NCBI GenBank assembly: GCA_021782525.1
Contig: JAJXUY010000030.1
Span: 1-10,661, forward strand
Reading direction: 5' to 3'
Origin: Acidobacteriota bacterium
GTDB taxonomy: Bacteria > Acidobacteriota > Thermoanaerobaculia > Thermoanaerobaculales > Thermoanaerobaculaceae
DNA length: 10,661 nt
Numbering within the stretch: position 1 is the stretch's first letter; each line of letters opens with the position of its first letter. Of this stretch, positions 1,128-4,809 are shown piece after piece. The notes below the pieces were generated by a model. The model was not told where the DNA came from. It searched no databases and saw nothing but the letters and a program-made list of their open reading frames with translations. Made by a program: the position numbers and the translations under genes.

Positions 1128-1144
1128 GGTAGTGTCCTAATTTG
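1128..1144 (+). repeat. left terminal inverted repeat
   Basis: GGTAGTGTCCTAATTTG matches the reverse complement of 4793-4809 in 17 of 17 positions. Identity stops immediately inward (AAGAAAGG against CCGGGCGT), so the repeat is bounded. One further G/C outside also matches but is better assigned to the target duplication. Confidence 0.88.
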
Positions 1145-1161
1145 AAGAAAGGTGAGGAAAC

Positions 1162-1449
1162 ATGAGTGACAGCGACGGTTTCAAGAGAATTGAAAGTGAG
1201 CTTGCTCGGGTGTCGGCTAGGCTGAGGGAAGAAGCGGGGGCGGCGGGGCTCTACTGCCAACTCTACGCGGCGCAGCAGGCGCTCGCGTGGGCGTTAGACC
1301 CAGAGCTTGCCGCCGCCCCCCTAGGCGTGATCGTTACAGGTCGAGTTCAGCCGCTTACGGACACTCAGGAAGGCTCAGGAGGTTGTTCGGATGCTCTCCG
1401 TCAGCCTCTGTCTTCAGGTATTTGTGCCCCGTCGCGCTCACGGCGATGA
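1162..1449 (+). CDS. small hypothetical protein at the left end of the element
   Basis: A 95-residue ORF starting 17 bp inside the left terminal repeat, with GGTGAGG at 1151-1157 four bases before the ATG. The first 60 residues look like genuine protein: an amphipathic helix (FKRIESELARVSARLREE) then QLYAAQQALAWALDP, resembling short uncharacterised proteins rather than translated noise. The last ~30 residues overlap tail-to-tail with the better supported DUF3892 gene on the other strand and are Ser/Arg-rich, so the C-terminus may be fortuitous. There is no recognisable domain beyond a likely coiled coil. It could be read from the DUF4097 promoter, which would run through the left end. Its function is unknown. 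Confidence 0.5.
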   Translation: MSDSDGFKRIESELARVSARLREEAGAAGLYCQLYAAQQALAWALDPELAAAPLGVIVTGRVQPLTDTQEGSGGCSDALRQPLSSGICAPSRSRR

Positions 1450-1642
1450 CGACCCAGACCGACTTGCCGGCTACACTGACCCAGAAGCGCCAGCGCCGGT
1501 CTTCGATGCCCTTGATTGCTTCATCAAGAGTGAGCTTCCACCGTTTGCCGTCGGGGTTTACGCCGCCTACATGAGAAATGCGCTCGTGGGCACTGGTGCG
1601 GTTGGTCTTGTTGATGCACTGGATGCGGATGTTGCTTGCCAT
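1355..1642 (-). CDS. DUF3892 domain protein
   Basis: A 95-residue protein matching the DUF3892 layout: an N-terminal strand with the Ile-x-CINK motif (RIQCINKTNR), a His-x-x-Ile-Ser-His segment (HERISHVGGVNPDG), a central amphipathic part and the C-terminal signature KYLKTEADGEHPNNLLSLPECP. This length is typical for the family, whose function is unknown and which is often found near mobile or stress-related genes. The ATG at 1642 is supported by AAGGAAA at 1658-1652, about 9 nt upstream. It is cargo of the transposon, in the same direction as the 101-aa and 259-aa genes but 233 bp further on. That gap holds the antisense sRNA-like unit. No convincing separate promoter is seen on its strand. 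Confidence 0.85.
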   Translation of the reverse strand: MASNIRIQCINKTNRTSAHERISHVGGVNPDGKRWKLTLDEAIKGIEDRRWRFWVSVAGKSVWVVIAVSATGHKYLKTEADGEHPNNLLSLPECP

Positions 1643-1681
1643 TATGTCGTGTTTCCTTCACCGGTGGCGCACAAATCTCCC

Positions 1682-1710
1682 TTGACCCGTGGGACCGCCG
1701 GATGTACATT
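1682..1710 (+). promoter_or_regulatory. promoter of the plus-strand sRNA-like unit
   Basis: TTGACC (1682-1687), 17 bp, TACATT (1705-1710). Start is predicted near 1717. A perfect inverted repeat TGTCT/AGACA (1710-1724) overlaps the end of the -10 and the start site and could be an operator. No credible plus-strand gene follows, but an intrinsic terminator does. Confidence 0.55.
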
Positions 1711-1716
1711 GTCTGT

Positions 1717-1826
1717 TGTAGACAGGCAGCAGTCAGGTATAGACCTGTAAGGCTGCCAGGTAGCCACCACGGCCTCCGCTCCGGGCACTCCGCCAAGAGA
1801 CATCCGGAGCGGGGTCTTCGTTTTTC
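1717..1826 (+). ncRNA. candidate small RNA inside the transposon
   Basis: About 110 nt lie between a good promoter (1682-1710) and a rho-independent terminator, with no start codon plus ribosome binding site of note. It contains a nested fold: GGCAGC (1725-1730) pairs with GCTGCC (1752-1757), enclosing a perfect CAGGT/ACCTG hairpin (1734-1747). A spacer leads into the terminator stem at 1776-1812. It lies opposite the gap between the minus-strand 101-aa gene and the DUF3892 gene, so it could act as an antisense regulator of that transcript, or be the guide or copy-number RNA of the element. It matches no RNA family I can name. Existence is inferred from promoter, fold and terminator together. 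Confidence 0.5.
1774..1825 (+). terminator. rho-independent terminator
   Basis: CCGCTCCGG (1776-1784) and CCGGAGCGG (1804-1812) form a 9-bp stem, extendable by two pairs, around a 19-nt loop. It is followed by GGTCTTCG and a run of five T (1821-1825). The T-run makes it directional for the plus strand. Confidence 0.65.
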
Positions 1827-1827
1827 T

Positions 1828-1864
1828 GCCCCCTGTGCCGGTGACAGCAGCGAGCGCAGGGGGC
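1828..1864. other. 11-bp inverted repeat downstream of the 101-aa gene
   Basis: GCCCCCTGTGC (1828-1838) pairs with GCGCAGGGGGC (1854-1864), one G-T pair, loop of 15. It lies just past the stop of the minus-strand 101-aa gene and could slow or end that transcript, but it has no U-run on either strand, so termination is uncertain. Confidence 0.45.
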
Positions 1865-3131: not shown

Positions 3132-3165
3132 GTGGTGGTCGTTTGTCGATCGCTCATCCCTGGTA

Positions 3166-3194
3166 TTGACAAAACAACTTATAGCGGTTATATG
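3166..3194 (+). promoter_or_regulatory. transposase promoter, probably giving a leaderless mRNA
   Basis: TTGACA (3166-3171), 17 bp, TATATG (3189-3194), or 16 bp to TTATAT (3188-3193). Either way transcription should start at about 3200-3201, i.e. at the transposase ATG. No Shine-Dalgarno sequence precedes the ATG, consistent with leaderless translation. Confidence 0.6.
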
Positions 3195-3200
3195 TGAGAC

Positions 3201-4028
3201 ATGGCGAACCTCCTAATCCGGCAGAAGCAGGAAGCAGTTCTCCGTTGCCTCGTTGACGGTGCCTCGATCCGGGCCACAGAGAGGATCACCGAGGTTCACC
3301 GCGACACCATCCTCAGGCTGATGGTCCGGGCGGGCGAGGGGTGCGAACGCCTCATGAACGAGACGATGCGCGACCTGCCCTGCCACCGTATCGAGGTTGA
3401 CGAGCTGTGGGCCTACGTGGGGAAGAAGCAGCGGCACGTACGGCCAATCGACAATCCAGACCTGGTAGGAGACTTTTGGACGTTCGTCGCCCTGGACCCC
3501 GAGACCAAGTTAGTCCCGACCTACCTAGTGGGAAAGCGCACGGCAGAGAACGCCGTGGCGTTCATGGTCGACCTCTCGTCGCGGCTGGCCAACCGGGTGC
3601 AGCTCTCCTCTGATGCGCTGAACGCCTATGTGGAGGCTGTGGAGACGGCCTTCGGCGCCGACGTGGACTATGGGCAGATCGTAAAATCGTACGAAGCAGA
3701 GCCCATCGGGGCAGGTAGGTACTCTCCCCCGCGTGTCGTGGCCACCGAGCGGGCCGCGATGATGGGGAACCCGGTGCGGGCCAACATCTGCACGAGCCAT
3801 GTGGAGCGGCAGAACCTCACCGTCAGGATGAACATGAGGCGTTTCACCCGGCTGACAAACGCCTTCTCAAAGAAGGCGGACAACCTCCGGGCCGCCGTGG
3901 CCCTGCACTTCGCCACCTACAACTTCGTGCGGGTTCACAGGACCCTCGGCACGACCCCGGCGATGGCAGCGGGTGTGGCAAGGAATGTGTGGGACATGAC
4001 AACCCTGCTAGATGCGACGGCGCCATGA
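3201..4028 (+). CDS. IS1-family-like DDE transposase (single ORF)
   Basis: A 275-residue protein that catalyses cut-and-paste or copy-out movement of the surrounding element. Residues ~1-45 form a helix-turn-helix (VLRCLVDGASIRATERITEVHRDTILRL) for end recognition. The DDE core is visible: Asp67 in EVDELWAYVGKK, Asp138 in LSSDALNAYVEAV, and Glu202 in SHVERQNLTVRM, with the conserved FWTFVALDPETKLV strand between the first two. The C-terminus (RRFTRLTNAFSKK, ALHFATYNFVRVHRTLGTTPAMAAGV) is typical of the large single-ORF IS1-like group, which does not need the frameshift of classical IS1. All catalytic residues are present and the frame is open, so it looks functional. Classical IS1 placement rather than another DDE group is from memory of motif similarity. 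Confidence 0.9.
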   Translation: MANLLIRQKQEAVLRCLVDGASIRATERITEVHRDTILRLMVRAGEGCERLMNETMRDLPCHRIEVDELWAYVGKKQRHVRPIDNPDLVGDFWTFVALDPETKLVPTYLVGKRTAENAVAFMVDLSSRLANRVQLSSDALNAYVEAVETAFGADVDYGQIVKSYEAEPIGAGRYSPPRVVATERAAMMGNPVRANICTSHVERQNLTVRMNMRRFTRLTNAFSKKADNLRAAVALHFATYNFVRVHRTLGTTPAMAAGVARNVWDMTTLLDATAP

Positions 4029-4031
4029 ACG

Positions 4032-4100
4032 AACCCCAGAGAAAAAGACAGCCCCAGCTAACGCCAGGGCCGTCGGGCCAGGGATGCTATCCCTGGGGTT
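4032..4100 (+). terminator. nested inverted repeats after the transposase, possible terminator
   Basis: AACCCCAG (4032-4039) pairs with CTGGGGTT (4093-4100), and within this lies a perfect 8-bp hairpin CCAGGGAT/ATCCCTGG with a GCT loop (4078-4096). The two folds compete for 4093-4096. The 3' side ends GGGGTTGTAG, with no long U-run. It begins 3 nt past the transposase stop and may insulate it from the NYN gene, or be an RNA switch; termination itself is uncertain. Confidence 0.45.
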
Positions 4101-4152
4101 GTAGTCGCAGGTATACTGAGGCGCCAATGACGGATTGTCAAGAGGTCATATA

Positions 4153-4800
4153 ATGCAAACACGCACAATGGTTTACATCGACGGGTTCAATCTCTACTTC
4201 GGGATGAGAGACAGCGGATGGAAGCGGTACTACTGGATGGACATAGGGCGCTTCGGGCGGAGCCTTGTGACTGGCAACCACGAGGCGGTCGGGGTTAAGT
4301 ATTTCACCGCCAGGGTGGCCGCACCCCCGGACCAAGTTGCCCGCCAGGGGACCTTTCTTGAGGCCAACCAAGTTGTTGGCGGATGCACCATGTTCTTCGG
4401 ACGCTATCAGCAAGACCCCTATACGTGCAGGCATTGCGGGACAAGATCTGTCGCGCCACACGAGAAGGCCACCGATGTCTTCCTTGCAGTTGAAGTACTC
4501 ACGGATGCTGTCAATGACTCATTCGACCGAGCGGTCCTCGTTTGCGCCGATGCAGACTATGCCCCAGTCATCAGGCGGGTTCGGGAACTCTTCCCCGAGA
4601 AGGTCGTAGTCATCGGCGAGCCACCCATGCGAAGGTCAAGCGAGCTCCGCCGCACCGCGAATGCGAGCTTTCGAGTCTCGGAGGAGACGCTGAGACGGTC
4701 ACAACTCCCGGACTCAGTCACCAAGCAGGATGGCTTCGTTCTTCGCCGACCCGAACGGTGGTACAAGAACGTACCGCCGAGGCCACGCCCGGCAAATTAG
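4153..4800 (+). CDS. NYN-domain (PIN-like) nuclease family protein
   Basis: A 215-residue protein. ATG at 4153 is preferred over an in-frame TTG at 4135 because AGAGGT (4141-4146) is 6 nt before it and the protein then begins directly at the NYN core. Conserved acidic sites of the family are visible: Asp10 in YIDGFNLYFG (with Asn13), Asp108 in KATDVFLAVEVL, and Asp133/Asp135 in LVCADADYAPVI. A Cys92-x-x-Cys95 pair (TCRHCG) could help bind metal. NYN proteins are PIN-like metal-dependent nucleases, mostly RNases, with roles in RNA processing, toxin-antitoxin systems and defence. The stop codon TAG (4798-4800) lies inside the right terminal inverted repeat, so the gene is an integral part of the element. 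TATACT at 4112-4117 may be its -10, but no clear -35 is seen; read-through from the transposase is possible. Confidence 0.9.
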   Translation: MQTRTMVYIDGFNLYFGMRDSGWKRYYWMDIGRFGRSLVTGNHEAVGVKYFTARVAAPPDQVARQGTFLEANQVVGGCTMFFGRYQQDPYTCRHCGTRSVAPHEKATDVFLAVEVLTDAVNDSFDRAVLVCADADYAPVIRRVRELFPEKVVVIGEPPMRRSSELRRTANASFRVSEETLRRSQLPDSVTKQDGFVLRRPERWYKNVPPRPRPAN

Positions 4801-4809
4801 GACACTACC
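4793..4809 (-). repeat. right terminal inverted repeat
   Basis: CAAATTAGGACACTACC is the exact inverse of the left terminal repeat (17 of 17). It contains the last codon and the TAG stop of the NYN gene. Confidence 0.88.

Follow-up and report, generated by a model that had tools for sequence, protein, structure and literature searches.

The 10,661-nucleotide stretch of Acidobacteriota DNA analysed here (contig JAJXUY010000030.1, assembly GCA_021782525.1; hereafter the window) hosts an intact IS1-like transposon, belonging to a group which routinely bears cargo. The element spans 3,682 bp (positions 1128-4809), and a tRNA-like gene, with an anticodon complementary to the stop codon UAG, resides inside its ends. 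This gene is the real surprise of the element. The sequence features of the gene and of its relatives make stop-codon reading plausible, and the overall explanation ranked best, at slightly less than even chances, is a cargo-bearing IS1-like transposon with a tRNA giving low-level stop-codon readthrough. A wider claim is more tentative. IS1-like transposons spanning several phyla (Acidobacteriota, Chloroflexota, Nitrospinota, Myxococcota and Pseudomonadota, many of the genomes being binned metagenomes) may carry functional nonsense-suppressor tRNAs that evolved anew on bodies of the Ser, the Ala and possibly the Glu type; if so, a transposon would alter the reading of stop codons in its host, and such elements would house at least some of the puzzling allo-tRNAs.

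Ends of the transposon and its relatives

The ends of the window element and its target duplication are established. A 17-bp terminal inverted repeat (TIR), GGTAGTGTCCTAATTTG, lies at 1128-1144 on the forward strand, and is mirrored at 4793-4809 (reverse strand) by its exact reverse complement. The 8-bp target duplication, CCCGGCCG, is present in two perfectly matching copies at 1120-1127 and 4810-4817. An 18th base pairs too, but the ends are fixed by the duplication. The repeat is not a chance occurrence, since the 17-mer was found in 15 of 396 sampled Acidobacteriota genomes (the phylum of Terracidiphilus), and the reversed control pattern scored 0 in each row of the survey. An earlier interpretation of this DNA, the sequence-only reading, had described repeats, duplication and length as given here, and had rightly called the element an intact cargo-bearing IS1-like transposon. 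The 275-amino acid DDE transposase (3201-4028, forward strand) matches the Pfam family PF03400 (DDE_Tnp_IS1) at 36.1 bits, over a cut-off of 24.1. All 121 aligned sequences, that of the window among them, have D67, D138 and E202. A promoter-like sequence, TTGACA-17-TATATG, was spotted by eye before the gene (3166-3194, forward strand); a consensus scan did not flag it.

Relatives were gathered in two ways, by transposase similarity (27 loci, plus phylum and class samples named after the loci used as centres) and by the 17-mer end. With E-value limits of 1e-40 for Chloroflexota and 1e-50 for the other groups, the transposase found matches in 19 of 301 genomes of Chloroflexota, 40 of 396 of Acidobacteriota, 17 of 148 of Nitrospirota, 1 of 77 of Nitrospinota, 13 of 169 of Myxococcota, 15 of 270 of Alphaproteobacteria and 2 of 185 of Gammaproteobacteria. 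Forty-one elements, the window one included, could be delimited by inverted ends together with a perfect 8-bp duplication, and range in size from 459 to 5,583 bp. GGTAGTGTCCTAATTTG is exact in many of the nearer relatives of the window element; the ends of more distant ones mostly start with GGTAGTG, and then diverge. Members of the IS1 family have 8-9 bp target duplications and short inverted ends, measure about 0.8 kb and usually carry the transposase only. The window element resembles them in its PF03400 match, its 8-bp duplication and its short inverted ends. It differs in that its transposase scores 63.3 bits against the NCBIfam transpos_IS1 equivalog, below the cut-off of 100, and 40 of the 41 elements differ from IS1 in being 1.8-5.6 kb long and in hosting further open reading frames (ORFs). 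The sequence-only reading would have yielded to cargo-free copies of about 1 kb, or to a lack of homologous elements with the same ends; no autonomous copy of that kind was found among the 41 elements, and homologous elements do share ends. The sole member shorter than 1.8 kb is a 459-bp mini-element (L041:1501-1959) with both ends and an exact duplication. No transposase is seen in it, and its cargo is a 115-amino acid ORF with the glyoxalase/bleomycin-resistance fold (PF00903).

The tRNA-like gene of the window

The gene maps at 2997-3086 on the reverse strand; the sequence-only reading had mentioned RNA units within the transposon, but had overlooked this one. It encodes a class II tRNA-like molecule bearing the marks of allo-tRNAs, namely a 12-bp branch organized as 9/3 (9-bp acceptor, 3-bp T stem), a long variable arm, and the Ser identity base G73. 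All 12 pairs of the branch are formed, and the cloverleaf has a folding energy of -47.4 kcal/mol. The anticodon, CTA (3049-3051, reverse strand), sits in the loop CCCTACA (3047-3053), and was assigned by eye and by comparison with relatives. A promoter-like TTGACA-17-TAGTGT precedes the gene (3103-3131, reverse strand), again noted by eye and not flagged by the consensus scan. Identity with tRNA-Sec was considered and rejected: the Rfam model RF01852 is matched over its full length at 45.2 bits, below the cut-off of 47, and the anticodon is CUA rather than UCA.

tRNA-like genes in related transposons

A scan covered the 136 transposase loci that have 150 nt or more of upstream DNA, and matches within 420 nt were retained. 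Twenty-three loci matched, 22 once L170 had been dropped as false by eye, compared with none of 136 controls taken inside the transposase gene. A rescan of 26 near relatives lacking a match, with the threshold lowered and the reach extended to 930 nt, added L188, L191 and L192, and in L019 the tRNA sits elsewhere in the element. The tRNA-bearing loci thus total 26, window included; two of them, L020 and L080, belong to the same genome and have close transposases. ARAGORN and Rfam also detect tRNAs in L001 and L021, which were left out of the count. Within duplication-verified elements tRNA-like genes are found in 21 of 41, a sample partly chosen for tRNAs, and in 9 of the 24 elements, window included, found before any tRNA-based selection. 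At one and the same threshold, 18 of the 41 elements (126 kb) matched, and in 216 kb of DNA flanking these loci four matches turned up, three ordinary tRNAs and a likely false one.

Anticodons, read by eye, are UUA or CUA in 16 of the 26 loci. UUA is found in L004, L016, L019, L020, L025, L080, L185, L186, L188, L189, L192 and L198, CUA in the window, L060, L073 and L184. UGA was noticed in L021, an element with frameshifted genes. Other anticodons are GUA (L191, L131), UAU (L116), ACU (L152, L091) and CGU (L178); L169 has two tRNAs with apparent sense anticodons, and in L102 and L104 the anticodon is uncertain. The window transposase belongs to a clade of 33 rows (SH-aLRT 97), 14 of which have a tRNA, with stop anticodons in 13 of the 14. 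On a quick tree, the stop label (12 stop, 7 other rows) requires 2 changes versus 6.0 for shuffles, none of 500 shuffles being as low. The chance of 13 out of 14 under uniform anticodons is <1e-15, a figure given no weight in view of the relatedness of the rows and of a possible preference for pyrimidines at base 34. Three types of tRNA body were recognized: Ser 9/3 (window, L019, L185), Ala, the commonest, and Glu-like (L016, L025). The three share a loop pattern in which bases 35-37 are TAC, and Ser 9/3 bodies are placed among Ala bodies on the transposase tree, which argues that the loop has been kept while the body changes.

Single loci deserve mention. L209 carries two tandem tRNA-like genes within one element (3842-3986). 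L200 contains two distinct elements of the group as neighbours (2465-5838 and 5847-10066), with AATATTAG as common target duplication; their tRNAs are of the Ala type in one and of the Ser 9/3 type in the other, both with the anticodon UUA. The transposase frame of L201 (2367-3230) is open save for one in-frame TAG in a conserved motif, and the tRNA of the element has anticodon UUA; the TAG could denote decay or readthrough.

Relationship to allo-tRNAs

Allo-tRNAs are reportedly the subject of Mukai et al. 2017. They were searched for with the Rfam tRNA-Sec model in 44 genomes, from the family of a Terracidiphilus genome, and 15 places, chosen by score and length, were inspected; the model also matches ordinary class II tRNAs, and finds matches in 14 of 14 control genomes. 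Nine of the 15 places are tRNA-Ser by ARAGORN. Both allo-tRNAs(UAU) identified (L250, L254) lie inside elements with ends GGTAGTGTCCTAAA and exact 8-bp duplications, equipped with IS1-like transposases (49-51% identity). The three allo-tRNAs(GCG) (L249, L251, L252) all lie outside such elements, without an IS1-like transposase, in a conserved stretch of only ~220-315 bp. The transposon association is concrete for UAU allo-tRNAs, and absent for the GCG types seen. L260 (4316-4421) holds a 106-nt Ser-like class II tRNA missed by ARAGORN; its anticodon is apparently GCA (Cys), and a look at its surroundings revealed no transposon ends.

The review PMC7609411 describes a pseudogene of the allo-tRNA(UAU) type in overlap with an ORF related to transposons, regards the function of allo-tRNAs as unsettled, and puts forward ties with transposons or toxin-antitoxin systems as hypotheses. 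Going by this review, such ties had only been suspected; the UAU types are here placed inside defined elements. Acidobacteria are among the hosts of allo-tRNAs, and the window tRNA is similar to allo-tRNAs in being a 9/3, class II, Ser-type molecule with an odd anticodon. It differs in residing within defined transposon ends with a target duplication, and in having CUA, which is not among the anticodons named in the review for 9/3 allo-tRNAs (Arg, Leu, ochre). Defined transposons holding allo-tRNAs, with their ends, duplications and recurrent companion, make the question of allo-tRNA function testable.

The companion and the winged-helix-like protein

The usual partner of the transposase in the group is an unannotated companion protein of about 100 amino acids, encoded at 1876-2181 on the reverse strand. 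We call it AWS, from its YAWS motif. It is found in 25 of the 41 duplication-verified elements, and its predicted structure is alpha-beta4-alpha (pLDDT 90.5). The family is large, including 2,268 proteins, that of the window among them, out of 2,317 candidates, yet among the 120 listed none has a name beyond "hypothetical protein", and 119 lack a Pfam domain, the other one having PF07510. Translation would begin at a GTG that shares a base with the stop codon of the preceding gene (TAGTG), which encodes a 259-amino acid winged-helix-like putative regulator (2181-2960, reverse strand; ending in TAG, with the ATG at 2960 as start, the GTG at 2969 being possible too). The sequence-only reading had seen a winged-helix protein with a coupled partner. 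The partner is the conserved companion; the winged-helix likeness is weak, as no Pfam match exceeds the cut-off, and the AlphaFold model (pLDDT 85.7) vaguely recalls winged-helix regulators, with no match at E 0.001 or better. The 67 proteins of this family, window's own included, have neither a Pfam domain nor a name beyond "hypothetical protein", and members occur in 9 of the 41 elements. Among the 24 elements found before tRNA-based selection, window included, those with the winged-helix gene bear a tRNA-like gene in 6 of 7 cases, those lacking it in 3 of 17 (Fisher p 0.004, uncorrected for relatedness). Relatives named for a Thermoanaerobaculaceae bacterium show 89%, 69% and 51% identity for transposase, companion and winged-helix-like protein, respectively, and for each of them the longest contig recorded measures 197,002 bases; a related set of the three probably exists as a unit.

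Proposed stop-codon reading and its alternatives

In the explanation ranked best, the DDE transposase would move all DNA between the ends, as expected from the mechanism of the DDE family. The winged-helix protein may regulate divergent promoters, and the companion may assist transposition or its control. The tRNA gene would be transcribed with the winged-helix/companion operon, and then trimmed out. A host enzyme would charge the window tRNA with serine, and the Ala-type relatives with alanine. Once charged, the window tRNA would read UAG and its relatives UAA and UAG, giving low-level readthrough in the cell. UAG closes both the winged-helix-like gene, at the overlap with the companion start, and the gene of an NYN-domain protein described below, and readthrough might tune the winged-helix/companion and NYN products.

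Seryl-tRNA synthetase recognizes its substrates without reading the anticodon, and alanyl-tRNA synthetase has G3:U70 as its main identity element. According to the review PMC7609411, insertion of Ser or Ala in E. coli was seen with some allo-tRNAs of the 8/4 and 9/3 types. Such bodies would be able to accept stop anticodons. G3:U70 and A73 are found in 15 of 15 Ala-type bodies compared. Acceptor and T-stem cells are paired in 176 of 180 cases, whereas shuffles average 142 and none of 2000 reached the observed value; six of the 12 pairs, namely 4:69, 5:68, 6:67, 7:66, 49:65 and 50:64, show two-sided changes. Two of the four failures are a register effect, the T arm of L192 being one base short; pairing helped to find most of the sequences, so that the pairing score is biased upwards. 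The invariance of G3:U70 was not forced by the search, since G-C counted as a pair alongside G-U.

Several observations weigh against stop-codon reading. The anticodons of the sister clade are sense. T or C at base 34 before TA always makes a stop anticodon, hence "pyrimidine then UACA" and "stop codon" are indistinguishable as rules. The tRNA is found in a minority of loci (22 of 136), and is therefore not needed for movement. Base 37 of tRNAs is normally a purine; C37 occurs in 16 of 16 stop-anticodon loops, U33 is absent in 7 of the 16, window included, and the anticodon stems of Ala types are weak, so that these tRNAs may be poor decoders, or no decoders at all. The fold of the window tRNA is not unusually stable compared with shuffles (z -1.09, for the stretch minus its last two bases); its anticodon arm is bulged, and is drawn otherwise in the lowest-energy fold. 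Neither a conserved readthrough extension nor an internal stop was found in the companion and winged-helix families, and in stop-anticodon elements UAA or UAG remains the stop codon of 3 of 8 companion genes and of 3 of 6 winged-helix genes. Allo-tRNAs(UAU), moreover, were inactive in E. coli translation, as stated in the review PMC7609411; as UAU types reside in the same kind of element, this slightly lowers the odds of stop-codon reading.

The same C37, missing U33 and weak stems suit a different role for the tRNA-like RNA, that of a signal for regulation or processing: the transcript would be cut by RNase P and trimmed at the 3' end, which would set the mRNA level, and the conserved loop would be a recognition motif. 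This role is possible, though on the whole unlikely. In 9 of the 12 Ala-type cases of the upstream scan the tRNA ends 15-44 nt before the first aligned residue of the transposase. In most relatives (L004, L016, L020, L025, L060, L073, L116, L131, L152, L184-L186, L189) a GC-rich hairpin, seen by eye, immediately precedes the tRNA-like gene on its 5' side and favours this role too, and L020, L201, L207 and L208 match the tRNA-like part of tmRNA, below the cut-off. The window tRNA, however, is directed away from the transposase and lacks such a hairpin, the gap is 85-283 nt in L102, L104 and L186 (Ala) and in L185 (Ser), and the tRNA of L019 lies elsewhere; the preservation of G3:U70 in all 15 Ala types compared implies charging. 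Capture by chance of the tRNA as neutral or decaying cargo, like other passengers, would agree with the sense anticodons of the sister clade (L116, L131, L152, L091, L178) and with the lack of a tRNA at most loci. It is an improbable alternative, given compensatory stem changes and an invariant G3:U70 across phyla, and a loop kept across three bodies.

Variable cargo

NYN and DUF3892 proteins were correctly named in the sequence-only reading, as both have Pfam matches. The former (PF01936; 4153-4800, forward strand, with the TAG stop inside the right TIR) matches the PADLOC entry HEC-09 over nearly its full length (E 3.3e-70, 234 bits, residues 3-203 of 215). HEC entries are PADLOC candidates, and the link with HEC-09 is a profile match. 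The DUF3892 protein (PF13031, Pfam E 8e-20; phrog_8224) is encoded at 1355-1642 on the reverse strand. A 95-amino acid ORF (1162-1449, forward strand), which may or may not be a gene, has no family match. No homologue of any of the three was found in 63 other elements or part-elements searched. The idea that NYN, winged-helix and DUF3892 proteins form a self-contained joint system is consequently unsupported, because NYN and DUF3892 recur in none of these elements; the recurring genes, besides that of the transposase, are those of the companion, the winged-helix protein and the tRNA, in the proportions reported above. NYN and DUF3892 may rather be variable cargo, possibly for defence.

Relatives carry other passengers: GmrSD/HEC-06 in L001, a Schlafen AlbA_2 gene with HATPase in L008, P63C in L005 and L060, and a DUF5343-like gene, below cut-off, in L004. 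The first two, along with the HEC-09 match (E 3e-70), lend some support to the defence role also proposed in the sequence-only reading. They are what would be expected if the element were a mobile defence island with NYN as payload, and the tRNA as its target, decoy or antidote. Since the 63 other elements without an NYN homologue include tRNA-bearing ones, and HEC-09 is a candidate only, such an island is very improbable.

Other mobile elements and flanking features

Phages can carry suppressor tRNAs. In both settings a mobile element brings a tRNA, here predicted to read stop codons, but no recoded genes are found in the two protein families checked (companion and winged-helix). Relatives of IS1595 have insertion sequence ends around passenger genes, as the window element does; in the latter, Pfam matches include no IS1595 transposase domain, and the cargo includes a tRNA.

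An int-alpA RNA (RF02996, cut-off 35.8) lies inside the L200 transposon (6364-6433, 42.8 bits), and a second match, just below the cut-off at 35.6 bits, inside the L215 transposon (1744-1815). In the window, a terminator scan picked out a hairpin at 4047-4074 on the reverse strand, a weak indication, as 3 were found versus 2.4 expected. An ordinary tRNA-Ala(CGC) gene is located at 4870-4945, outside the element, 52 bp beyond the right target duplication.

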